Shown in pieces: positions 15,928 to 37,354 of a stretch of 64,000 nt of DNA (position 1 is the stretch's first letter; each line of letters starts with the position of its first letter). The DNA is from Pseudomonas sp. FP2335 (GTDB lineage: Bacteria > Pseudomonadota > Gammaproteobacteria > Pseudomonadales > Pseudomonadaceae): contig NZ_CP117437.1 of NCBI RefSeq assembly GCF_030687535.1, forward strand, positions 3,121,501-3,185,500. The letters are read 5' to 3'. The translations under genes were made by a program, and so were the position numbers. The notes under the pieces were generated by a model that saw only the letters and a list, made by a program, of their open reading frames with translations, was not told the DNA's origin and ran no database searches.

Positions 15928-16545
15928 TCAGGCGATGGATTTCAAATTCGGCCGGGCGTCCTTCATCAACTGTTCAGCCTTGCGCCCCAACTCCCCCGCC
16001 TTTGCTTCAACCTGGCGGCACTGCTTGGCGAAGGCCGGCAAGTGCGGCAGGTCTTGCTCGCACATCACTTGGTCGTCAAACACTTCGCTGCCGGTGTCGA
16101 TCACGTCGCCGAGGGCGCGGATCAGTGCACCGAAGCTCTTGTTCGCGCATTGATCGCTGGTCATCTGGCGGGCGCCGGTCAGGCCGTGGCGGCTCGCCAG
16201 CTCGTTCAGGCAGTGATCTCGGTATTCAGGCTCAAGCGCATTGACCCAAGACTCTTCCAGCCAGGACGGCATTTCCTGATCGCCAGATAGCCAGCGCTGA
16301 ACACGCTTAAGCCAGCGTCCGGTCGCCTTCACGAACTCACTCACGTCGCCGGTCAGGTCGGGCGAATTGAAATCAGGGACGACCTTCTCCTTGGCGCGAT
16401 CAGGAATCGACAGGTGCAGTTCGCGGCTCAAAGCCTGAGCGAAGTCGTCCTGGCTCAAGCTGGTGCGCGCGATCTGGTTTTGAGCATGGGCGACCAGCAC
16501 CTGATCACGGGTTTGTAAGGTGTGTCTGGAACTGGACGTTTGCAT
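15928..16545 (-). CDS. YdaT-like phage protein (cII position)
   Basis: 205 residues. The segment SEFVKATGRWLKRVQRWLSG and the helix after it resemble the core of YdaT, which in E. coli Rac follows the Cro-like YdaS and blocks cell division when expressed. Position after a YdaS-like gene supports this. A CII-type regulator is an alternative. The C-terminus (about 165-205) is a charged helix. Confidence 0.55.
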   Translation of the reverse strand: MQTSSSRHTLQTRDQVLVAHAQNQIARTSLSQDDFAQALSRELHLSIPDRAKEKVVPDFNSPDLTGDVSEFVKATGRWLKRVQRWLSGDQEMPSWLEESWVNALEPEYRDHCLNELASRHGLTGARQMTSDQCANKSFGALIRALGDVIDTGSEVFDDQVMCEQDLPHLPAFAKQCRQVEAKAGELGRKAEQLMKDARPNLKSIA

Positions 16546-16599
16546 GGGGGCTGCTCTCTTCTAATCTGGCTTCAATGGAACGGCGGAAAGGGATGTCGC

Positions 16600-16815
16600 T
16601 TAGGCGGCCATCTCGGCCCATGGAAACGACGGACAAAGGGATTCTTTTTTGAAGGCACCCCCGGTCAACGCCTCCGCTCGCTTGGCAACCACTGGAGACA
16701 TGCCGTGCTTCTCGCGAACCCAACCGGAAACGGTGCTTTGATCAACCTTGAGCTTTTCAGCCGTGACCTCCTGAGTGCCGAAGAAGGCAACGAGGTCCTT
16801 ATAAATAGTTTTCAT
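16600..16815 (-). CDS. Cro-like / YdaS-type DNA-binding protein
   Basis: 71 residues from ATG 16815, preceded by GGAGG. It has a helix-turn-helix (AEKLKVDQSTVSGWVREKHG) followed by SPVVAKRAEALTGG, the pattern of Cro/YdaS proteins. It is the first gene of the leftward early transcript, facing the repressor across the operators, and should repress repressor transcription. Confidence 0.8.
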   Translation of the reverse strand: MKTIYKDLVAFFGTQEVTAEKLKVDQSTVSGWVREKHGMSPVVAKRAEALTGGAFKKESLCPSFPWAEMAA

Positions 16816-16827
16816 GCTGCCCCTCCA

Positions 16828-16891
16828 TACGGGAATACCCATATAGTAGTTTATGGGAATACCGATTTGCAAGGATATGGGAGCACCCGTA
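16828..16891. promoter_or_regulatory. Right operator region: three repressor operators
   Basis: Three 16-bp palindromes of consensus TATGGGAATACCCATA at 16828-16843, 16852-16867 and 16876-16891. They are spaced exactly 24 bp start to start, fill the gap between the Cro-like and repressor genes, and match the two sites at 21.9 kb. Confidence 0.85.
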
Positions 16892-16895
16892 ATAC
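16843..16895. promoter_or_regulatory. Back-to-back PR and PRM promoters sharing one -35
   Basis: The palindromic hexamer TTGCAA (16867-16872) can serve as -35 in both directions. Rightward: 17-bp spacer then TAATAC (16890-16895) for the repressor. Leftward: 18-bp spacer then TACTAT (16848-16843) for the Cro-like gene. Operators overlap all elements. Confidence 0.65.
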
Positions 16896-16902
16896 TCGCG
16901 GA

Positions 16903-17571
16903 ATGGAATTCAAAGATCGTTTAAAGGCAGCGCGCCGGCACGCCAAGCTCAATCAGGGCGAATTGGCCGCGAAAGCTGGTATCACGCAGACGTCAATTTC
17001 TGACCTTGAGCGTGGAAAATCGAAAGCCACCGCACACGTCGTGAAGATCGCCGACGCATGTGGGGTGAGCGCCAAATGGCTCTCAGACGAGATTGGGCCA
17101 ATGTTGGCGCCTGGGTCGACGTCCGGCTCTGGCGAATCGAACGTCTCCCCCGCCGCGCAACCCACCAAATCATTCCGCTACCCGGTAGTGAGCTGGGTTG
17201 CCGCCGGTGCCTGGGCAGAAGCCGTAGAGCCCTACCCGGCCGGAATTTCAGACACCTACGAGTTTTCGGAGTACGACTCCAAAGGCCCGGCGTTTTGGCT
17301 GACAGTTAAAGGTGATTCGATGACGGCGCCTGCCGGCCAGAGCATTACTGAGGGCACGCTGATCCTGGTAGATACCGAGGCCGAGGTTGCCCCAGGTAAG
17401 CTGGTCGTGGCCAAGCTCCCAGACAGCAACGAAGCCACTTTTAAGAAGCTGGTCAGCGATGGCGGTCGGCTGTTCTTAAAACCGCTGAACCCGAGCTACC
17501 CAATTGAGGCGGTGGACGAGAGCTGCCGGATCGTGGGCGTGGTTGTGCAGGCGCTGCAGAAGTTTTACTGA
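16903..17571 (+). CDS. Phage repressor, CI/LexA-like (HTH plus S24 peptidase)
   Basis: 222 residues. The HTH is at about 16-40 (LNQGELAAKAGITQTSISDL). The S24 self-cleavage domain has an Ala-Gly cleavage site (A101-G102), catalytic Ser139 in KGDSM and Lys171 in VVAK. RecA-stimulated self-cleavage would allow SOS induction. No Shine-Dalgarno precedes the ATG, and the predicted transcription start falls on or next to it, so the message is probably leaderless like lambda cI. Confidence 0.9.
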   Translation: MEFKDRLKAARRHAKLNQGELAAKAGITQTSISDLERGKSKATAHVVKIADACGVSAKWLSDEIGPMLAPGSTSGSGESNVSPAAQPTKSFRYPVVSWVAAGAWAEAVEPYPAGISDTYEFSEYDSKGPAFWLTVKGDSMTAPAGQSITEGTLILVDTEAEVAPGKLVVAKLPDSNEATFKKLVSDGGRLFLKPLNPSYPIEAVDESCRIVGVVVQALQKFY

Positions 17572-17810
17572 TGCCATCCGCACTTGGAAAACCGTCGAGC
17601 TCATGGCGAGAGCAGAGCTTCTGGAGCAAGGTGTGGACCTATGCTCTGCTGGCGCTCATGCTGGTTTTCACAACCGAAGCCGGCATTTGGCCGGACGGCA
17701 GTTCATCTCATCGCAAGCGAGTCTTCAGCCCTGGCTTCGTTGTGCTCTGCACCATCGTGGCGGTGATTGAGCTGATAGCGCTGAGCCATTACTATGGCTT
17801 GAATGGATGA
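17571..17810 (+). CDS. Small inner-membrane protein next to the repressor
   Basis: 79 residues with two membrane spans (about 20-37 and 55-72) separated by a polar loop (WPDGSSSHRKRVF). Its ATG overlaps the repressor stop (TGATG), so it is made with the repressor in the lysogen. It is clearly homologous to the host protein at 51912-52127: both share KxWTYALLA, a WPDG loop, RKRVFxPGF and a Tyr-Gly end. It sits in the position of lambda rexB, also a membrane protein, though the sequences look unrelated. Confidence 0.75.
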   Translation: MPSALGKPSSSWREQSFWSKVWTYALLALMLVFTTEAGIWPDGSSSHRKRVFSPGFVVLCTIVAVIELIALSHYYGLNG

Positions 17811-17893
17811 GGTGGGAGAGTCGGTCGTCGCTTGTTCTACGCCTGACCACAGAAATTTATCCAAATATCTAAAACGTACCGAATAATCACGGG

Positions 17894-19669
17894 ATGACTA
17901 TGACGGATCGTCGCACGAGCAAAAAAAGCTCCGCAGCTGCAGTGGCAAACAACAGCAAACAAAGCTTGTCCCTTCTTAGTCTTAGAATAGAAACGCCAGC
18001 CTTTCGCAAGCTAAAAAATATCTCTATAGATTTCGCTGAAAGAATAACCCTAATAGCCGGACACAACGGAATAGGAAAATCAACAATACTTGGGTTAGTT
18101 GCAAACGGCTCCGGTATAACGGTAAAAACTGCGAGAACACTAGGCATTGCTCCGACTTATACGGGAAAGCTATTCAACGGCGTACTCAATGAAATAGTAC
18201 ATATTGACTACGAGAGCGAATATCTTGTAAACAAACAGGAAAATAAATTGGCCAGCCCACACCTAGACTATCGTGTGAATGGCGATGAAATATCCATGAG
18301 ATGCGGCTTCACGCATCGCGAAGTGAAAAATAGTGACAACATCACGAGCCGAATCGAACCACGAGTCGTGGCTAGAATTTCAAAAAAATATATAGACCCA
18401 ACCGGAAAAGTCTCGATCGGCGTCGCATCAAAGATGCCACTACCTACAATTTATCTAGGTATGACGCGAATGATCCCTATTGGAGAAAGCAATCCAGAAT
18501 TAGTTGAAAGCACACGCGACAATACTATCACCGAGGATGACGGAAAATTCATTGAGGATTTCATCCAAGACATCATTAATGTTACAGGACGAAAACAAAA
18601 AAATAGTGGCGTGATCACAACCCAGTCGATCCGTGGCACTAACAAAATTGCAAAGCATCCCGAATACCCTCACAGCCCGAAAAGTGTTTCGCTGGGCCAA
18701 GATAGCTTGAGCGCCATAGCTACCGCCTTGGCGTCCTTCAGACGTTTGGAGAGAGAATGGCCAGATTATCCTGGCGGTTTGTTAGTGATCGATGAGATAG
18801 ATGCCGGCTTCCATCCTCACGCACAGAAAGCGCTTATAGATGGGCTTAAAAATATTGCAAAGAAACTACGACTGCAAGTAATAGGCACAACTCACTCTTT
18901 ATGCATGATAGAGGCAATCCATCCAGATACCAACCCAATCCCTGAACGAGGAACGAGAGTTGACTCCGTGGTTTATTTGACCGACTCCATAGCACCTCGC
19001 TTTGCACGAGACATGTCTTTCATACAAATAAAAGATGATATGTCGCTAACCCCGCCCAAGCCCCCAGAAAAGGCTGCAAAAATCGACAAAACTCTTAAAG
19101 TCTATCTGGAAGATGCAGAAGCAAACTTTATGCTTGGCCTACTTCTTACTCAAAAACTAAAGAGGCAAGTTAATACCGCGACTGGAAGAACGCTCAAGGC
19201 AATACCGATAAGTGTTGGCTGTAACAACCTGCAAGGCCTCCAGAACTTCGACAAATATTTTAAAACCGTGCTAATAGTTGTTGACGCAGACTCAGCAGTA
19301 AACGCAAGCTTAAAGAATGTGGTAAAGCTTCCAGGGGGCTCAGATAAGGCAGGAAATGGCTTTTCTCCGGAAAGGACCATTTATGAGTTTTTACAAGAGC
19401 TAATGGAGGACAACGAAAAATACCCTACTGCTCGATCAGCGCTGGAAAAAATGAATATCAGTCGCGATCAAATTGGCACTCACCTTCTTAAAGGCGATGT
19501 AAACATTACAAATCGGATTTCGTCAAAAAGCTGGATGAAAGCCAAGTTACAAAAAATCAAGGACTGGAAAATAGTTGAGCTTTGGTTTGTGGAGCATCCT
19601 GATCTGGTCAAAAAATTCGAAACCGACCTGATTTTAGCCGCTACCAGGACCGCAATGCTGACGAAATAG
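17894..19669 (+). CDS. AAA ATPase-TOPRIM protein, OLD-like; candidate phage defence
   Basis: 591 residues. ABC/SMC-type ATPase: Walker A GHNGIGKST (56-64), signature-like VSLGQDSLSA (about 270), Walker B LLVIDEID (about 299) and a GTTHS switch His (about 330). The C-terminal third has a TOPRIM-like pattern: an acidic motif in KVYLEDAE (about 404) and VVDADSA (about 462), then LPGG and an ERTIYEFL helix. This is the architecture of OLD and Gabija GajA nucleases, and of fused PARIS proteins. The gene is clearly AT-richer than its neighbours, downstream of the repressor and upstream of a DNA methyltransferase. Which known system it is closest to cannot be decided by eye. No good ribosome site; a second ATG at 17900 is possible. 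Confidence 0.8.
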   Translation: MTMTDRRTSKKSSAAAVANNSKQSLSLLSLRIETPAFRKLKNISIDFAERITLIAGHNGIGKSTILGLVANGSGITVKTARTLGIAPTYTGKLFNGVLNEIVHIDYESEYLVNKQENKLASPHLDYRVNGDEISMRCGFTHREVKNSDNITSRIEPRVVARISKKYIDPTGKVSIGVASKMPLPTIYLGMTRMIPIGESNPELVESTRDNTITEDDGKFIEDFIQDIINVTGRKQKNSGVITTQSIRGTNKIAKHPEYPHSPKSVSLGQDSLSAIATALASFRRLEREWPDYPGGLLVIDEIDAGFHPHAQKALIDGLKNIAKKLRLQVIGTTHSLCMIEAIHPDTNPIPERGTRVDSVVYLTDSIAPRFARDMSFIQIKDDMSLTPPKPPEKAAKIDKTLKVYLEDAEANFMLGLLLTQKLKRQVNTATGRTLKAIPISVGCNNLQGLQNFDKYFKTVLIVVDADSAVNASLKNVVKLPGGSDKAGNGFSPERTIYEFLQELMEDNEKYPTARSALEKMNISRDQIGTHLLKGDVNITNRISSKSWMKAKLQKIKDWKIVELWFVEHPDLVKKFETDLILAATRTAMLTK

Positions 19670-19735
19670 AGGCTGGCCAAGTATACTGCGCGCCGTTAAA
19701 CTGAGGCTCAGACGCCTCAAAGGATGAGATAGAAA

Positions 19736-20614
19736 ATGTACTCCAACAAGCTATACAGCCCCTTACGCTACCCCGGAGGGAAGGCTCGCTTTGCGCCTTT
19801 CATTGCTGAGGTAATGCGGGCTAACGGCCTGGCGGACGGACACTATCTCGAACCGTTTGCCGGCGGAGCCGGTGTTGCCCTTGAGTTGCTTTTCGACGGG
19901 CATGCAACTCATATCCATATCAATGATCTCGATCCGGCTGTATTCGCCTTTTGGTCAGCCGCCACTACCGATCCGGACGGGATCCTAAAACTGCTCAGAG
20001 ACACTCCAATCACTATGGAGCAATGGCATCACTGGCGTTGCGTGATGCTTGGTCAAGACCCTGACCTATCCCTTGCGGAAAGGGGTTTTGCAACGCTTTT
20101 TGTTAACCGCACCAACCGCTCAGGCATCCTCAAGGGCGGAGTCATCGGAGGGAAGGCTCAGACTGGCGCCTACAAACTCGATGCTCGATTCAGCAAAGAG
20201 ATGATTGCTGCCAGACTTGAACGAATCGCGCTGAATGCAGATCGGATTTCGGTATATTGCGAGGACGCCTTTCTTTTGCTGAGCCGCGCAGCAGAATTTC
20301 TGCCAGAACAATCGCTGATCTACCTTGACCCGCCGTACTACGTTAAAGGGCGCGGCCTATACCGAAACTTCTACAAGCACGAAGATCACCTTCAAATTGC
20401 TAAATTGCTGCAGTCGCCTGACTTTGAGAGGCCGTGGGTAGTCTCCTACGATAACGCGCCAGAAATCTGCGAGATGTATAGCCAGAACGAGGCGCTGACG
20501 TATGGACTGCACTACACCGCTCAAGCGCGATATGTAGGCGACGAGGTCATGTTCTTCAAAGAAGGTATCTCCGTACCTGATGCGAAGATCCCTAGAGCCA
20601 CTGTGGCGGCATGA
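19736..20614 (+). CDS. DNA adenine methyltransferase, D12 class (Dam-like)
   Basis: 292 residues. It opens with the family's SPLRYPGGKARFAPFI, followed by motif I EPFAGGAG (about 41) and motif IV DPPYY (about 200). D12 enzymes methylate adenine N6, often in GATC. It lies 66 bases after the ATPase-TOPRIM gene, in the same direction, and ends at a terminator, so the two may act together (self-protection plus effector) or it may simply shield phage DNA. Confidence 0.88.
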   Translation: MYSNKLYSPLRYPGGKARFAPFIAEVMRANGLADGHYLEPFAGGAGVALELLFDGHATHIHINDLDPAVFAFWSAATTDPDGILKLLRDTPITMEQWHHWRCVMLGQDPDLSLAERGFATLFVNRTNRSGILKGGVIGGKAQTGAYKLDARFSKEMIAARLERIALNADRISVYCEDAFLLLSRAAEFLPEQSLIYLDPPYYVKGRGLYRNFYKHEDHLQIAKLLQSPDFERPWVVSYDNAPEICEMYSQNEALTYGLHYTAQARYVGDEVMFFKEGISVPDAKIPRATVAA

Positions 20615-20622
20615 ATCCAAGT

Positions 20623-20648
20623 CCGGCCCAGCGCCGGGCTTCTTATTT
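20623..20648 (+). terminator. Probable terminator after the methyltransferase
   Basis: CCGGC/GCCGG stem with a CCAGC loop followed by a T-rich tail, ten bases after the methyltransferase stop. It would end the repressor-led operon. Confidence 0.55.
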
Positions 20649-20708
20649 CTGGCAAGCGCCCTGCTCTGCTATGGTGGCGCCCTCTGATCGCAATGGAAGC
20701 ATCGAAGA

Positions 20709-21035
20709 ATGGACTCATGGAAGACCCTGGCGATCGCCGTCATGGTGATGAGCAGTGCTGACGCTATAGCGTTTGAAGTCGAGAATCCCGTCGAAAGAAC
20801 ACTGACCGTCACCACCATGGTCCCAACGATGATCCTCGGCGGAACAACGGCATTCACAGTCTACGGCCCCTCAATGATGATAAAGGCGAAAGACGATGCC
20901 CTCGCATTCATTGGCTCAGAGGGCGAGATTCGTGGCGCAGAGTTTGAGCAGGCATCCAGATACTACCATTCGACCGATCCTTCTCCGCTCATGTCAGACA
21001 TGCAGTTGGCCCAGTCGATAGCTACATCATTCTGA
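20709..21035 (+). CDS. DUF2388-like exported protein
   Basis: 108 residues with an N-terminal signal sequence (TLAIAVMVMSSADAIA). The block AKDDALAFIGSEGEIRGAEF followed by a SDMQLAQSIA end is the recognisable core of DUF2388, a Pseudomonas family of small exported proteins. Function unknown. It is unusual on a prophage; a separate unit with its own terminator suggests cargo. Confidence 0.7.
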   Translation: MDSWKTLAIAVMVMSSADAIAFEVENPVERTLTVTTMVPTMILGGTTAFTVYGPSMMIKAKDDALAFIGSEGEIRGAEFEQASRYYHSTDPSPLMSDMQLAQSIATSF

Positions 21036-21151
21036 AAGCGGCCTTCAAGCAGGCCGCGATGCGAGACCTTTCGTTTCGGCGACATCCTTTTCACCTGGCA
21101 TTTACAGGACGGAGTGCAAAGTCGCCCTACTCCTTTGAAGAATTCCCTTTA

Positions 21152-21179
21152 GGCCCGCACATAAGCGGGCCATTTTTTT
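21152..21179 (+). terminator. Rho-independent terminator
   Basis: GGCCCGC/GCGGGCC stem, ACATAA loop, followed by seven T with one A. It lies about 115 bases after the DUF2388-like gene. Confidence 0.8.
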
Positions 21180-21222
21180 GCCCGCGGCTATGCTTTCCAT
21201 GCCATCTACTGGAGACCAAGCG

Positions 21223-21441
21223 ATGCCTTCGCCCGAATACTCCCTTACAGACACCTTGGAACGCATGTATGAGAACCAGCTCGCCCTAGAAGCTGCGCTG
21301 ATGGAGTTGACGCTGCTCGTCGAAAGCCAAGGCCATGCCAATATCGGCGAGAATGTGCGCGGCGCCCTAGAGGCGATCGGAGAGAACGCCGGGCATATCA
21401 AGCAGGGCCTGGCCAGGTTGAAGGCCCGGGAGCCGGATTGA
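21223..21441 (+). CDS. Small phage protein
   Basis: 72 residues from ATG 21223 (MPSPEYSLTD), preceded by GGAGA. It is almost all helix and acidic, with a probable coiled coil (LERMYENQLALEAALMEL). No family is recognised. It is enclosed by terminators and so is an independent unit. Confidence 0.6.
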   Translation: MPSPEYSLTDTLERMYENQLALEAALMELTLLVESQGHANIGENVRGALEAIGENAGHIKQGLARLKAREPD

Positions 21442-21456
21442 CGAATTGAGTTTGCG

Positions 21457-21482
21457 AGCCCGCCGCTAAGCGGGCTTTTTTG
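21457..21482 (+). terminator. Rho-independent terminator
   Basis: AGCCCGC/GCGGGCT stem followed by six T, just after the 21223-21441 gene. Confidence 0.8.
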
Positions 21483-21569
21483 TGACCGTAGGAAAAAACC
21501 CTCAGCCAATATATGCACTTATGCATAAATTTACCGCTGGGCTATTGTCAATGTACGCCAACGCAAATA

Positions 21570-21585
21570 CTGTACTTACACACAG
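21570..21585. promoter_or_regulatory. LexA-like SOS box before the DUF1654 gene
   Basis: CTGTACTTACACACAG fits the CTG-N10-CAG LexA pattern and lies 20 bases before the next ATG. It overlaps the -10 region of a possible promoter (TTGTCA, 17-bp spacing). This would switch on the DUF1654 gene after DNA damage. Confidence 0.6.
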
Positions 21586-21604
21586 TAATCGCAAGGAGCG
21601 AAGC

Positions 21605-21856
21605 ATGAACCAGACACCCTACTCCGCATCAAAACCAAGAAATTCCTACGAGCTTGTTGGCCGACGCCTGCAAGGCTTGATCGCTTCCCCTCGGGTCCAG
21701 AGGATTCAGTTGGTGGAGGTATCAAGGCGCGACGACGAAAGCCCTGAAGCCTGGCACCAGGTCATCCAAGACATCGGCGACACCGCCGGCATAAGGATCG
21801 AGCATTTGGATGATGGCGCCGTAAGGATCGGCTGGCGCGAGTACTGCGATTACTAA
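21605..21856 (+). CDS. DUF1654 family protein, probably SOS-regulated
   Basis: 83 residues from ATG 21605, preceded by AAGGAG. The pattern LVGRRLQGLIASPRVQRIQL, then ESPEAWHQVI and DDGAVRIGW matches DUF1654, a small Pseudomonas family common in prophages. A LexA-like box lies just upstream and a terminator just downstream, so it is a single-gene damage-inducible unit. Confidence 0.75.
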   Translation: MNQTPYSASKPRNSYELVGRRLQGLIASPRVQRIQLVEVSRRDDESPEAWHQVIQDIGDTAGIRIEHLDDGAVRIGWREYCDY

Positions 21857-21859
21857 ATG

Positions 21860-21883
21860 AGCCCGCCAGTGAGCGGGCTTTTT
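21860..21883 (+). terminator. Rho-independent terminator
   Basis: AGCCCGC/GCGGGCT stem followed by five T, three bases after the DUF1654 gene. Third terminator of nearly the same sequence in this area. Confidence 0.8.
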
Positions 21884-21901
21884 ATCGCCACCCATAAAAT
21901 A

Positions 21902-21944
21902 TATGGGAATACCCATTGACGATAAATATGGGAATGCCTATATT
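21902..21944 (+). promoter_or_regulatory. Left operators and PL-like early promoter
   Basis: Two repressor palindromes, TATGGGAATACCCATT (21902-21917) and TATGGGAATGCCTATA (21927-21942), 25 bp apart. Between and over them is a strong promoter: TTGACG (21916-21921), 17-bp spacer, TATATT (21939-21944). It points right, towards the recombination genes. The layout mirrors lambda OL/PL. Confidence 0.8.
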
Positions 21945-22047
21945 TGTATTCATCGAGACGCCAAAGCGAATCGCCAGAGCCGAGGGCTCGAAGTTCTTTA
22001 GCGACCCCCCTTGCCGGATCACCACCGGCCCAGATTCAAAGGCAGCG

Positions 22048-22194
22048 ATGAACCGGCCTAAACGGTTCAGAGGGTTGGCAACTGACCCGGGCGTGCAGCG
22101 TAAAGCGCCAAGAACAGTTATCCAGCGGGAGAACAAGCCGAAAGGCCCGCGGCTGGAAGAACATTTGATTCAAGCCGGTGACCGACGCCAGTAG
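22048..22194 (+). CDS. Small basic peptide, possible N-like antiterminator
   Basis: 48 residues, first gene after the PL-like promoter, with AAGG seven bases ahead of the ATG. It is rich in Arg and Lys (MNRPKRFRGLA, VQRKAPRTVIQRENKPKG), like the RNA-binding arm of lambdoid N proteins. No family match is claimed. The frame is open further upstream, but those starts fall inside the promoter. Confidence 0.4.
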   Translation: MNRPKRFRGLATDPGVQRKAPRTVIQRENKPKGPRLEEHLIQAGDRRQ

Positions 22195-22268
22195 CGGGTC
22201 ACGGCGGAAAGCATCACTGAGCAGCCTTCTCGCGAGGGCTGCTTGGGATGACAACCGGAGGTACGGAA

Positions 22269-22469
22269 ATGCCAACGAAGCGCGGCAGTGAAATTGAAAT
22301 AGGCGACGTGATCTACCTCGGCCTTGGCGATCGCACAGGTCGAGTCACTGACTTCAAGGCTCACCCGACGCTTGCAGAGCTGCATCCCGGCTTGACGGCC
22401 AGGGTCGCGATAACTGATCGGGGCTCAATCACGATCATCGACCAGCAGCCGATCAGGGTGCCGGAGTGA
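22269..22469 (+). CDS. Small phage protein
   Basis: 66 residues, with a strong GGAGG site. The pattern EIGDVIYLGLGDRTGRVTDF, then LTARVAITDRGSITII suggests a small beta barrel. It is preceded by a GC-rich hairpin (22221-22242). Function unknown. Confidence 0.65.
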   Translation: MPTKRGSEIEIGDVIYLGLGDRTGRVTDFKAHPTLAELHPGLTARVAITDRGSITIIDQQPIRVPE

Positions 22470-22528
22470 AGCTTTCACTGGCAGGCCTTCGCAAGAGGGC
22501 CTGACGGGAAATCAAACGGGAGTCACAC

Positions 22529-23290
22529 ATGAAGGTCGATAACGAAGTGATGGCGCTACTCAGCACCTCGCGCACTGAAGACAACAAACTGTTCATCACC
22601 GGCGGCCAACTCGACAAAAGCCTGTACCAGCGTCTCGACAAAACGCTGAAGGCTGCCGGTGGAAAGTGGAACACCAAGGCAAAGGCGCACCTGTTTGCCG
22701 GTGACGCGGCCGACGCAATCGAAAACATCCTGATGACCGGTGAGGTTACCGTTCCGCAGGACTTTGGCTTCTTCCCTACTCCGCCGCACGTTGCGAAACA
22801 GGCTGCGGATCTCGCCATGATCGGTGACGGGATGATGGTGCTGGAGCCAAGCGCGGGCCGTGGCGCTCTTGCTGTGGCCGCCAACTCCGCAGCAGTAGGC
22901 GTCATGGTCGACATGCACGAACTACTGCCGGACAACCACAAAGCGCTGATCGAACTGAAGTTGCCACTATCGGGAGTTTCCGAACCCTGCGACTTCCTGC
23001 AGGTCGAGCCGAAGCCCATCTATGACCGCGTGCTGATGAACCCGCCTTTCGACAAGAAGCGCAGCGACATTCACCACGTCGTTCACGCCCTGAAGTTCCT
23101 CAAACCCGGCGGCCGACTGGTGGCGATCATGCCTTCCGGTGTGACCTTTCGCGATGACGCTCTGACCCGGGACTTTCGCGGGATCGTAGAGCAGCGCGGC
23201 GGCAGTATCGAAACCCTGCCAGAAGCCTCATTCAAGCAGGCCGGAACGATGGTCAACACCGCATTGGTGGTGATCCCGGCCGCAGCCTGA
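22529..23290 (+). CDS. Phage SAM-dependent DNA methyltransferase
   Basis: 253 residues. After a roughly 80-residue N-terminal domain (LYQRLDKTLKAAGGKWNTKA) comes FFPTPP, motif I VLEPSAGRGAL (about 110) and motif IV MNPPF (about 171), the adenine-N6 type catalytic motif. It is common in early regions of Pseudomonas phages and probably protects phage DNA. It is the second of three methyltransferases in this prophage. A hairpin (22482-22503) precedes the ribosome site. Confidence 0.8.
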   Translation: MKVDNEVMALLSTSRTEDNKLFITGGQLDKSLYQRLDKTLKAAGGKWNTKAKAHLFAGDAADAIENILMTGEVTVPQDFGFFPTPPHVAKQAADLAMIGDGMMVLEPSAGRGALAVAANSAAVGVMVDMHELLPDNHKALIELKLPLSGVSEPCDFLQVEPKPIYDRVLMNPPFDKKRSDIHHVVHALKFLKPGGRLVAIMPSGVTFRDDALTRDFRGIVEQRGGSIETLPEASFKQAGTMVNTALVVIPAAA

Positions 23291-29313: not shown

Positions 29314-30321
29314 ATGCCTGTACGCCATAGCGTCATCCACAAGATCGACAAGAAGCCCGACGGCAGCCCGGCTGTTCTGTTCCTTGGCGCATCCGAGCAA
29401 GTCGACAGTCCGGCCCGCGACGACCTGATGAGCCAGCTGAACGAAAGCTACAACGCCACCGCCGGCAAGGGCTGGGGGTTCTTTCATAGCGAGTCAGGCG
29501 CCCATCCATTCAGTGGCTGGCTCGGCAAATACCTGGCTGGCGTCACCGACTTCCTGGCGTTCAGCACCATCGCCGTCGAACACCTGACCAAGCTGATGGA
29601 AGAATCGAACCTCACCACCGGTGGGCACGCCCTCTTCTGCCACTACCAGCAAGGCCTGACCGATTATCTGGTGATCGCGTTGGTGCAGGAAACCGAAGCG
29701 GTGACCATGACCGAAGAACTGGCCCTGCTGACGGTGAAACGCCTGGACCTGGACCATGTCCGCCTGGCCGCGCGCATCAACATCAGCGAATGGCAGACCG
29801 ACCGCCAGTCGAAACAGTACATCTCGTACCTGAAGGGCAAGCAGGGCCGGAAGCTCAACGACTACTTCCGCGACTTCATCGGCTGCCAGGAAGGGATCGA
29901 CGCGCCGAGCGAAACGCGCTCGCTGCTGAAGGCGTTCAGCGACTTCGTTGAAAGCGAGGACATGGTCGAAGATGCCGCCCGCGAAAAGACTCACACGCTG
30001 GTCAGCTACTCCATGGCACAGGCAAAGCTGGGCGAGCCGATCACCCTCAACGAACTGTCGAGCCTGATCGATGAAGACCGGCCGACGAGCTTCTACGACT
30101 TCATCAAGGCGAAGGACTACGGGATTTCCGAAAGCCTGCCGCCGGACAAAAAGACCCTCAACAAATTCCGACGCTTCACCGGGCGAGCCGAAGGGATGTC
30201 GATCAGCTTCGAGGCTCACCTGCTGGGCGACAAGATCAAGTTTGACGAGGGGGACGGCACTCTGACGCTTCGCGGCCTGCCCACGCAACTGACCGAACAG
30301 CTCAAGCGCGCTACCGCCTGA
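29314..30321 (+). CDS. Nucleoid-associated protein, YejK/NdpA-like
   Basis: 335 residues. It begins with a typical YejK start ([19 protein letters not shown]) and contains the conserved [20 protein letters not shown] and [20 protein letters not shown] blocks. Host YejK binds DNA at the nucleoid. Prophage copies are frequent in Pseudomonas; the likely role is DNA binding during phage growth or modulation of host nucleoid. It is a complete, full-length copy. Confidence 0.85.
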
Positions 30322-31131: not shown

Positions 31132-32868
31132 ATGCCCTCAAAACATAGCGCCACTCAATTCATCCACGGCCAGGCAAGCATGGGTCTGCCGTTTCAGAAA
31201 GAGCTGGTGGTGGACCTGTTCGCCGGCGGCGGTGGTGCAAGCACTGGCATTGCCCGCGCGTATCGAGAGCCTGATGTGGCGGTGAACCACAACCCCATCG
31301 CCCTGGCCGTACATCGCGCCAATCACCCCAAGACCGCGCACTATGTCGCGGACGTGTTCGAGGTCGACCCGGTGCTGGCCACTGGCGGGCAGCCCGTTGG
31401 CATCCTCTGGGCATCGCCCGACTGCCGCCATCACAGCAAGGCCAAGGGAGGCGCACCGCGTGACCGTGGCGTACGCGGCCTGGCGTGGGTTGTCGTTCGC
31501 TGGGCACACGCCACACGCCCCCGCCTGATGTTCCTGGAGAACGTTGAAGAGTTCTGCGACTGGGGGCCAATCGACGAGGATGGCCAGCCAATCAAGGCGG
31601 AGCGCGGGCGCACCTTCAAGTCGTTCATCGCGGCGCTCAGTACCGGCCTACCGGCGGATCACCCGGACATGCCGGAGGTTCTGGAATCCATCGGTGAGTT
31701 CGTGCCGCTGGAAGCGCTGGTGCGCGGCCTGGGCTACAACGTCGAGTGGCGGGAGCGAATCGCGGCGAACGCCGGCGCGCCGACCATCCGCAAGCGCCTG
31801 TACCTGGCGGCTCGCAGCGATGGCCTTCCGATTGTTTGGCCGGAGCCAACCCACCGCAAAAAGCCGTCGGCAAAACAGAAGCCTTGGCGCACCGCCGCCG
31901 AGTGCATCGACTGGAGCAACTTGGGCAAAACCATCTTTCGCGCAAAGGACATGGCACTGAACACCCGCCGCCGGGTGGCCAAGGGCATGTGGCGGCACGT
32001 CATCACCAACGACAAGCCTTTCATTGTTCCAATGCGGGGCACCTCCTCAGCCCACACCAGCACCCACAGCGTCGATGAGGCGGTATCGACCATCAGCTCC
32101 GGCGGCACCCACCACGCGCTGGTGCAGCCTGTAGCGGCACCATTCCTCACCGAGTGCGCCAATGGATCGTCACAGCGCAACTTCGATGCACAGGAGCCGC
32201 TGCGCACCCAGGTCGCCCAGGTCAAGGGCGGGCACTTCGCGATGGCGGCCTGCCACCTGACCCACCCCGGAGTAGTCGCGGCGTTCTTCGAGCAAGCCAA
32301 CGGCGGATTCTACAAGGGTGATGGGCGCCCGGCTGACTCACCGATTTCCACCATCTGCCAGTCCGGCTCTAACCAGCGGCTGGTGAACGCTTACCTGGTG
32401 AAGTACTACGGGTGCGACAAGGGTGGCGTTTCGCTCACCGAGCCAATGCACACCCTGCCGACAAAAGACCGCGTAGCTCTGGTGGAAGTGGTCCAGGTGC
32501 CGGACACGCTCACCCCCGAACAAATGGAAGGCGCCCGGCGCTGCGCTGCGTTCATGCACGAGCATTTGCCTGAGCACTTCAAAGACCCTGCCGACATGGT
32601 AATGATCAATGGCTACGTGCTGGTGGATATCACTTTGCGCATGCTGCAACCCCCGGAGCTGAAGGCCGCTCAGGGCTTCGATAAGGGCTACATCATTGAC
32701 CGTGGGCTGTTTGTTGACCCAGTAACCGGTGCCGAGCAGTGGCTACCGATCAACAAGACGAATCAGGTCAGGCTCATCGGCAACAGCGTCTGTCCCGACG
32801 AAGCAGAGGCGTTGGTACGAGCCAACGCCGCCGACATCATTAAGCTTTACCAGCGGCTAGCAGCTTGA
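31132..32868 (+). CDS. C5-cytosine DNA methyltransferase
   Basis: 578 residues, longer than simple C5 enzymes. Motif I is VVDLFAGGGGASTGI (about 26), motif IV carries the catalytic Cys in ASPDCRHHSK (about 97) where most enzymes have a Pro-Cys, motif VI is ENVEEF, motif VIII lies around RKRLYLAA, and motif X is LIGNSVCP. The long middle (about 290-480) has four imperfect repeats of an (E/D)xxxT...LV type, probably the target-recognition part. It protects phage DNA; no partner nuclease is adjacent. Confidence 0.88.
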   Translation: MPSKHSATQFIHGQASMGLPFQKELVVDLFAGGGGASTGIARAYREPDVAVNHNPIALAVHRANHPKTAHYVADVFEVDPVLATGGQPVGILWASPDCRHHSKAKGGAPRDRGVRGLAWVVVRWAHATRPRLMFLENVEEFCDWGPIDEDGQPIKAERGRTFKSFIAALSTGLPADHPDMPEVLESIGEFVPLEALVRGLGYNVEWRERIAANAGAPTIRKRLYLAARSDGLPIVWPEPTHRKKPSAKQKPWRTAAECIDWSNLGKTIFRAKDMALNTRRRVAKGMWRHVITNDKPFIVPMRGTSSAHTSTHSVDEAVSTISSGGTHHALVQPVAAPFLTECANGSSQRNFDAQEPLRTQVAQVKGGHFAMAACHLTHPGVVAAFFEQANGGFYKGDGRPADSPISTICQSGSNQRLVNAYLVKYYGCDKGGVSLTEPMHTLPTKDRVALVEVVQVPDTLTPEQMEGARRCAAFMHEHLPEHFKDPADMVMINGYVLVDITLRMLQPPELKAAQGFDKGYIIDRGLFVDPVTGAEQWLPINKTNQVRLIGNSVCPDEAEALVRANAADIIKLYQRLAA

Positions 32869-36319: not shown

Positions 36320-37354
36320 ATGGCGCGACGGCCCACCAACCCCGGCAGCATCCCCCGGCTGCGCAAGCGCCTGCGATCCGGGGGAAGGGTTTATTACTAC
36401 TACGATGCAGGCGATAAGCCCAGGAAGGAAATCGCCCTTGGCTCCGACTATGGTGCCGCGATAGTTGAGTATGCGCGCCTCGAAAAGAGCCGGGCAGCGA
36501 ATGCGCTGGTCGCCGCGGCGCTGACCTTCGAGTACGTCGCAAACAAGTACGTGGAAGAGGTGGTGCCTACGAAGTCGCCGGCCACACAGAAGGACAACGC
36601 GCGAGAGTTGAAGCAGCTCCTGATCTTTTTCAACGACCCGCCAGGTCCATTGGAGGCAATCGAACCAAAGCACGTGGTTCAGTACCTGCGCTATCGCTCA
36701 AAAACCGCGAAGGTACGCGCCAATCGGGAAAAGGCTCTGCTCAGTGCGATCTGGAACTTCGCCCGCCAGAGCGGCTACACGTCGCTCGCCAACCCATGCG
36801 CGGGCATCAAGGGGAACAAGGAGACCGGCCGGGACACCTACGTCGAGGACGAAATGCTAGCGGCTGTATACCTGCACGCCGATCAACCGCTCAAAGACGC
36901 ATTGGATCTGTTCTACCTCACCGCCCAACGCATTGGCGACACCCTGAAGATGGATGAGCGCCACTTGCTGGATGATCAACTGCTGATCACGCAGGGGAAG
37001 ACCAGCATGAAACGACGAATCGAGGTTGTTGGGGAGCTGAAGGTCGTGATCGACCGCATACTGGAAAGGAAGAAGGGGCACAAGATTCGATCAACCAGGC
37101 TCGTTGTAATGGACAACGGCCAGCCGATGACAGCAAGCATGCTGAGGGGGAGATTTGACGCGGCCAGGATGAAGGCCGGGATTGAAAAGTCTGCGTTTCA
37201 GATGCGCGACCTTCGCGCTAAAGCTGCCACGGACAAAGAGGAATCGACAGGTAGCATTCGTGACGCTCGGGACCAATTGGGCCACACGACCGTCGGGATG
37301 ACAGAGCAGTACATTCGGCGTCGCAAGGGCCTGAAAGTGCTCCCAACCAAGTGA
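36320..37354 (+). CDS. int: Tyrosine integrase
   Basis: 344 residues. N-terminal arm-binding (about 1-60) and SAM-like core-binding domains, then the catalytic domain: Arg in TAQRIGDT (about 210), Lys in QGKTSMKRR (about 231), RDLR (about 296; the usual His is replaced by Arg), His in QLGHTT (about 318) and Tyr in EQYIRRR (about 332). It inserts the phage into the 3' half of tRNA-Leu(TAA) lying 120 bases downstream. Confidence 0.92.
   Translation: MARRPTNPGSIPRLRKRLRSGGRVYYYYDAGDKPRKEIALGSDYGAAIVEYARLEKSRAANALVAAALTFEYVANKYVEEVVPTKSPATQKDNARELKQLLIFFNDPPGPLEAIEPKHVVQYLRYRSKTAKVRANREKALLSAIWNFARQSGYTSLANPCAGIKGNKETGRDTYVEDEMLAAVYLHADQPLKDALDLFYLTAQRIGDTLKMDERHLLDDQLLITQGKTSMKRRIEVVGELKVVIDRILERKKGHKIRSTRLVVMDNGQPMTASMLRGRFDAARMKAGIEKSAFQMRDLRAKAATDKEESTGSIRDARDQLGHTTVGMTEQYIRRRKGLKVLPTK

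Follow-up and report, generated by a model that had tools for sequence, protein, structure and literature searches.

A prophage-borne pair of an OLD-type ATPase-TOPRIM protein and a PD-lambda-5-family DNA methyltransferase as a candidate antiphage module

In phage lambda, the operator regions OR and OL frame cI-rexAB. What occupies the corresponding place in a prophage on the chromosome of Pseudomonas sp. FP2335, and what might it do there? The window analyzed here is a 64,000-nt stretch of that chromosome, whose numbering is used throughout; it carries the prophage, the left end of which lies beyond the window edge. The original prediction for this DNA had read the block behind the phage repressor as a Rex-like lysogenic operon of a small membrane protein, an ATPase-TOPRIM protein and an adenine methyltransferase, and as a possible undescribed defense module. 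We consider it rather probable that the last two form a prophage-carried, two-gene, restriction-modification (RM)-like antiphage module that would tell self from non-self by a mark on the DNA. This proposal builds on what was observed: the gene content, a pairing that is conserved, undamaged catalytic motifs, a methyltransferase family in common with the PD-lambda-5 defense system, effector exchange, and a conserved promoter. The features at its core are the following (values after family names here and below are E values):

17894..19669, (+) strand: OLD-type ABC ATPase with a predicted C-terminal TOPRIM domain, 591 amino acids (aa) (AAA_15, 1.1e-19; PHROG 3940, 7.8e-107)
19674..19702, (+) strand: conserved, predicted methyltransferase promoter, with a -35 box TGGCCA at 19674-19679, a 17-bp spacer, and a -10 box TAAACT at 19697-19702
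19736..20614, (+) strand: D12 DNA adenine methyltransferase of the PD-lambda-5 B family, 292 aa (PF02086, 5.9e-17)

The two proteins and their pairing

The 591-aa protein is intact and of the OLD type, an ABC ATPase whose C-terminal part is predicted to be a TOPRIM domain. Its ABC ATPase head is complete: Walker A, signature, Walker B, and switch histidine are all present, and K62, D300, E301, H334, E406, D407, D464, and D466 are kept in all 94 paired full-length sequences (80 remain at 95% identity). The TOPRIM glutamate and DxD motif, E406, D464, and D466, are thus present in 94/94, and the order and spacing of the active-site residues agree with the mapped active site of the B. pseudomallei OLD protein. 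The second-metal site and lysine of that protein (E404, T506, E508, and K562), compared by residue order, would correspond to E409 in 85/94 sequences, at spacing i+3 instead of i+4, to an S/T-x-E/D stretch at 491-493 in 59/94, and to K545 in 92/94. The TOPRIM fold of the C-terminal part, which had been predicted from the letters, is supported by the structural model, the fold comparison, and the active-site residues taken together. A profile of the C-terminal part found nothing related among PDB sequences; the same part had no Pfam match and nothing significant in the viral fold library.

The partner gene encodes a 292-aa protein, METHYLTRANSFERASE, which matches PADLOC PD-Lambda-5_B over residues 5-285 (E 5e-110); its DPPY motif is invariant in the methyltransferase alignment (A2). 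PD-lambda-5 is a proven prophage defense system that came out of a functional selection in E. coli (Vassallo et al. 2022, PMC9519451) and has been described as combining RM with abortive infection (RM+Abi). Its A protein is absent at our locus, and the OLD-type protein occupies its place: PD-Lambda-5_A was not among the best 25 of 128 PADLOC families for the window ATPase, and our own A profile matched no open reading frame (ORF) of the window locus (L001, at about 16394-21166) and no ATPase ORF. The A model PDLC04017 had no match in the whole genome, nor any in its control genomes. At some loci a protein that we had provisionally termed ParB-like lies between ATPase and methyltransferase; PADLOC identifies it as PD-Lambda-5_A, and the ParB likeness amounts to a weak sequence match (6ryk, E 0.042).

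The pairing is conserved when viewed from the ATPase. Single-sequence ATPase scans of viral and genome contigs returned no relatives; with an alignment (A1), 54 viral and 47 genome loci were obtained, 101 in total and not dereplicated, which span Proteobacteria, Firmicutes, Bacteroidales, and others. The methyltransferase subfamily was present within the fetched stretch at 92/101. Among the remaining nine, L011 and L026 have another D12 methyltransferase adjoining on the opposite strand, L014, L024, L028, and L050 end at a contig edge, L102 and L103 are fragments, and L104 belongs to another family with a separate TOPRIM frame. With three phage records added (104 loci), the methyltransferase lay directly downstream on the same strand, at most 300 bp from the match, in 77 cases, upstream in 5, and on the other strand in 2; all six phage records with the ATPase carry the methyltransferase. 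S24 repressors made up 22 of the 146 proteins within two genes upstream at 76 dereplicated loci, and integrases 7 of the 143 downstream proteins.

Several of these loci differ in arrangement. L026 and L149 are the same contig (IMGVR_UViG_2843959644_000001), on which the ATPase lies by the other D12 methyltransferase and a pair of PD-lambda-5 A and methyltransferase is found towards the other end. The order is reversed, methyltransferase then ATPase, in L089, L090, and L098-L100, from Bacteroidales and Mucispirillum-type genomes. In a Bacteroidales genome (L084, 1691-9909), the ATPase, PD-lambda-5 A, and methyltransferase stand behind what by eye are a restriction helicase, a DndD-type ATPase, and a GIY-YIG protein, a defense-island setting. 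L104 (6010-7785, a Bacteroidetes genome) combines an AAA ATPase with a separate TOPRIM-like frame behind it and is PARIS-like by eye.

One methyltransferase family with several effectors

Anchoring the search on the methyltransferase shows that the ATPase is one of several partners. Of 571 viral relatives, 80 were taken: 40 in the subfamily and 40 more distant D12 proteins. The 40 subfamily loci comprised 14 with the ATPase-TOPRIM protein, 24 with PD-lambda-5 A, one with both (L137), and one with none (L128, gene at a contig edge); five were already in the ATPase set (contigs of L008, L020, L033, L034, and L047), and some are near-duplicates. A partner was thus present at 39/40, as against 1/40 of the distant D12 methyltransferases, and that one (L169) is a truncated subfamily-like gene. 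The genome sample (18/369 class and 8/398 genus genomes, both including the window's own) comprised 26 loci: five with the ATPase (L196 and L197 by a divergent relative only), 19 with PD-lambda-5 A, one with both, and one with neither by profile, making 25/26 with a partner. The exception, L209, has a 437-aa neighbor with a DGNRR stretch resembling that of the A family. Four of these loci, L205-L208, lie at the places that supplied A proteins to our own A profile. Nine loci of the earlier sets hold both PD-lambda-5 A and ATPase. The methyltransferase family also stands beside HerA-type helicase genes and a 460-aa protein without Pfam family, with the ATPase in L061 (7758-12102) and without it in L114 (4986-9428); these genes are possibly a third effector set.

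Close relatives of the window locus display the exchange directly. In L228 the repressor (96% identity over 123 aa), membrane protein (78% over 32 aa), and methyltransferase (95%) are close to those of the window, while the ATPase is 28% identical; in L221 and L239 the corresponding values are 97% for the methyltransferase and 27% for the ATPase. Judged by these identities, effector exchange is recent. Across 4371 pairs, the methyltransferase was more similar than the ATPase in 93.9%, with a Spearman correlation of 0.58 between the two identities.

A conserved promoter and the proposed mechanism

Between ATPase and methyltransferase lies GGCTGGCCAAGTATACTGC, which is kept among prophages with differing ATPases. 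Upstream of the methyltransferase, no hexamer is as frequent as the TGGCCA in this sequence, which was found at 46 of 80 distinct ATPase-type loci, compared with a mean of 1.73 loci and a maximum of 7 in 200 resamples, in which no hexamer exceeded 27. The full motif, TGGCCA-N16..18-TAnnnT, occurs in 40/80 ATPase-type loci (36 with a 17-bp spacer) versus a resampled mean of 0.097 (300 resamples, none above 2), and in 7/39 other loci versus 0.05 expected. In 34 held-out loci that had not been used for discovery, it was found in six (3/15 of the ATPase type, 3/17 of the PD-lambda-5 A type, 0/2 others) versus 0.063 expected and at most 1, so that the motif there is real but less frequent. Among ATPase-type loci it follows the space between the genes: 31/42 with at least 30 bp carry it, 8/34 with less, and 1/4 of those without a co-directional effector upstream. 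The motif ranges over Pseudomonas, Rhodanobacter, Comamonas, Neisseria, Nitrospinota, Bacillus-type genomes, and a Streptococcus phage. No enrichment was seen for other palindromes at this position.

Because loci with either effector type carry the motif, the shared methyltransferase is the likeliest reader of TGGCCA. This site contains a single adenine on each strand, so the predicted mark is TGGCCm6A. Promoter methylation controls the methyltransferase gene in CfrBI, AhdI, and LlaDII, which are precedents (PMC12707154). Methylation-sensitive feedback probably acts at the -35 box TGGCCA, itself a palindrome.

A mechanism can be proposed in which the methyltransferase would mark the lysogen's DNA with N6-methyladenine and so protect it. 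The ATPase-TOPRIM protein would be a metal-dependent nuclease, its ATPase head gating the TOPRIM domain, and would be made from the lysogenic operon; transcription from the repressor promoter may continue into the ATPase gene, since the two have the same orientation and no strong internal terminator separates them. The supply of methyltransferase would be topped up from its own promoter, which would allow the mark to be in place before the nuclease when the prophage reaches a new cell. In a naive cell TGGCCA would be unmarked and the promoter open, and marking would come first; after marking, the promoter would close and the nuclease would be tolerable. A superinfecting phage with unmarked DNA would then be attacked and presumably cleaved. 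A broader version, which we put forward tentatively as possible though short of probable, holds that the methyltransferase family is a common chassis for exchanged effectors (OLD-type nuclease, PD-lambda-5 A, both, or HerA-type sets) and defines a new methyltransferase-associated OLD class, with TGGCCA as the recognition site and as the -35 box from Pseudomonas to Bacillus-type and Streptococcus loci; by sensing methylation, the promoter would switch the methyltransferase on only in an unmarked genome and so solve the establishment problem of a mobile RM system.

Several observations weigh against a module or a mark of this kind. Foldseek with the isolated TOPRIM model gave no match at E 0.001 or better, and the best VIA row for that model was a response-regulator domain (a family missing from the VIA lists is not thereby ruled out). 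TGGCCA is not avoided in the window, with 18 occurrences versus 18.4 expected in the prophage part and 29 versus 28.3 in the host part (maximum-order expectation), and the TGGCCA promoter is missing at many loci, including L222, whose methyltransferase is 95% identical to that of the window. ATPase and methyltransferase also recombine freely, which is surprising if the nuclease has to recognize the methyltransferase's site, unless one mark is common to all members.

Among the alternatives, abortive infection survives best, and we regard it as unlikely, if worth taking seriously. The ATPase-TOPRIM protein would be a dormant toxic effector, like AriB in PARIS or the Eco8 retron effector, silenced by the methyltransferase or by methylated DNA; a phage that disturbs methylation would free it, and the cell would die. 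The closest solved folds to the ATPase part, those of PtuA and retron effectors, are in keeping with this, as are the place of PARIS AriB among the longest TOPRIM alignments of the fold comparison and the RM+Abi description of PD-lambda-5 itself; the active-site order, however, fits the DNA nuclease OLD, and, the methyltransferase aside, no conserved sensor gene was found among the neighbors of the dereplicated loci. It is more doubtful still that the two genes are separate morons, the methyltransferase shielding phage DNA from host restriction and the ATPase-TOPRIM protein being an unrelated superinfection-exclusion or repair gene. Orphan phage methyltransferases are, as is generally known, common, and this one is also found without the ATPase, alongside PD-lambda-5 A. 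Yet no intact family member with enough flank lacks a D12 methyltransferase, and of 66 subfamily methyltransferase loci (the viral ones from the 80 relatives taken), a partner is missing by profile at just L128 and L209.

Prophage setting and comparison with known systems

The RM-like module proposed here sits among the following phage genes and sites:

2.6-6.4 kb, (-) strand: terminase, portal, and head morphogenesis genes
16600..16872, (-) strand: Cro-like regulator, divergent from the repressor (PHROG 35, 2.9e-14; Pfam P22_Cro, 5.4e-05)
16829..16890, no strand: predicted operator cluster 1, with 14-bp sites at 16829, 16853, and 16877 (the last with 3 mismatches)
16903..17571, (+) strand: CI-type repressor, helix-turn-helix plus S24 peptidase (PF00717, 6e-27; PF01381, 1.4e-12)
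17571..17810, (+) strand: hydrophobic 79-aa protein (PHROG 29612, 2.2e-44)
20619..20641, (+) strand: terminator-like hairpin, of a kind not above chance in the region
21903..21941, no strand: predicted operator cluster 2, with sites at 21903 (0 mismatches) and 21928
25.6 kb: RecT-like protein gene
36320-37354: tyrosine-type integrase

The positions given in the original prediction for the repressor, 79-aa protein, ATPase, and D12 methyltransferase within 16903-20614 all hold, as does the location of an OLD-type ATPase-TOPRIM protein adjoining a D12 methyltransferase at the lambda rex position. So do the two flanking operator regions: the sites of both clusters form one sequence family of ATGGGNATNCCCAT type, with nine sites of at most two mismatches in the window versus 2.18 in shuffles, and sites with at most one mismatch occur only at 16829, 16853, 21903, and 21928. 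The ATPase gene is AT-rich as claimed (43.8% G+C versus 58.9% for the window), and there is a single copy in the genome. The closing terminator is there as a hairpin, but the region holds nine such hairpins versus 7.7 in shuffles (standard deviation 3.0). Since the methyltransferase has its own conserved promoter, the block is not just one repressor-controlled operon.

The membrane protein fared less well. Its ATG overlaps the repressor stop (TGATG), as had been noted, and of the two spans claimed, hydropathy gives one clear (51-69) and one marginal (21-39). Homologues were found at 2/101 ATPase-anchored loci (L007 and L012) and in a single, unannotated record among isolated phages; it is not a conserved component of the module, and of the three genes expected together in relatives, the ATPase and methyltransferase co-occur and the membrane protein does not. 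A Rex-like exclusion unit, with this protein as effector and the ATPase as its sensor, draws on the location between operators and the coupling to the repressor gene but is very improbable, and the three-gene unit was rejected, because the membrane protein is so rare; nor is there a Rex family among the PHROG matches of the 79-aa protein, ATPase, and methyltransferase.

Other genes in the vicinity include a DUF2388 protein directly after the module (20709-21035, 3.4e-16), with a 61% homologue behind the module in L007, and an N6-methyltransferase-like protein just beyond operator cluster 2, in the presumed early-left operon (22529-23290; PF02384, 0.00012; PHROG 9133, 2.9e-63). Farther on are a phage-carried nucleoid-associated protein (29314-30321; PHROG 3767, 2.6e-120) and, as a second kind of methylation gene in this prophage, a phage DNA methyltransferase (31132-32868; PHROG 116, 8e-90) that appears by eye to be of the cytosine-5 type.

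Is the module undescribed? It is probably a defense unit, and no published description or name for the pairing was found in the literature searched, whose coverage leaves out most subscription journals; the search turned up work on BREX, Dnd, jumbo phages, or Gabija instead. Its methyltransferase family, though, is that of the proven PD-lambda-5. The available portions of two papers that deal with OLD classes 1-5 (PMC10568477 and PMC12796447) mention no methyltransferase-associated class. A 2026 paper (PMC12839542) credits a survey of conflict-system ABC ATPases, published in 2020, with OLD-ABC genes accompanied by various nucleases in RM-like systems, so that an earlier notice of a similar pairing is possible. 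Since PADLOC labels the methyltransferase half alone here, such units may be undercounted. If our reading is correct, OLD nucleases, known from Gabija, retrons, and PARIS, would also be interchangeable restriction effectors guided by a DNA mark; PD-lambda-5 would be one branch of a larger modular family, for the whole of which the mark (TGGCCA) and a methylation-sensing promoter would have been predicted from sequence.

Like lambda cI-rexAB, the block lies between operator regions and is read in the direction of the repressor; unlike it, it has no Rex match and holds the enzymes of a conserved module instead. With OLD classes 1-5 (single OLD, Gabija GajA, retron OLD, PARIS, and archaeal Cran1) it has in common an ABC ATPase head and a predicted TOPRIM domain with active-site residues in the same order. 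The partner differs: a DNA adenine methyltransferase takes the place of the helicase, reverse transcriptase, or separate TOPRIM protein. No GajB helicase lies next to the OLD gene, nor is there any helicase family among the scanned neighbors; no separate AriB gene is present, ATPase and TOPRIM being fused in one 591-aa frame, and the fused AriAB model of PADLOC (PDLC02981) is not among the best 25 of 128 families for the window protein. The scanned neighbors have no reverse-transcriptase match, and 16000-22500 has no Rfam match. As in the type II RM systems with promoter-methylation control (CfrBI, AhdI, and LlaDII), the modification gene has a promoter of its own that covers a palindrome, and the methyltransferase is paired with a predicted nuclease. 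Here the predicted nuclease is a large ATPase-TOPRIM protein, and one methyltransferase combines with exchangeable effectors from different families. PD-lambda-5 is also a prophage-borne two-gene unit with a methyltransferase of the same family. Its A protein (about 440-610 residues, with a conserved EGNRR stretch and no Pfam match in the two tested) is replaced in the window by a predicted ATP-dependent OLD-type nuclease, and at some loci both versions occur together.

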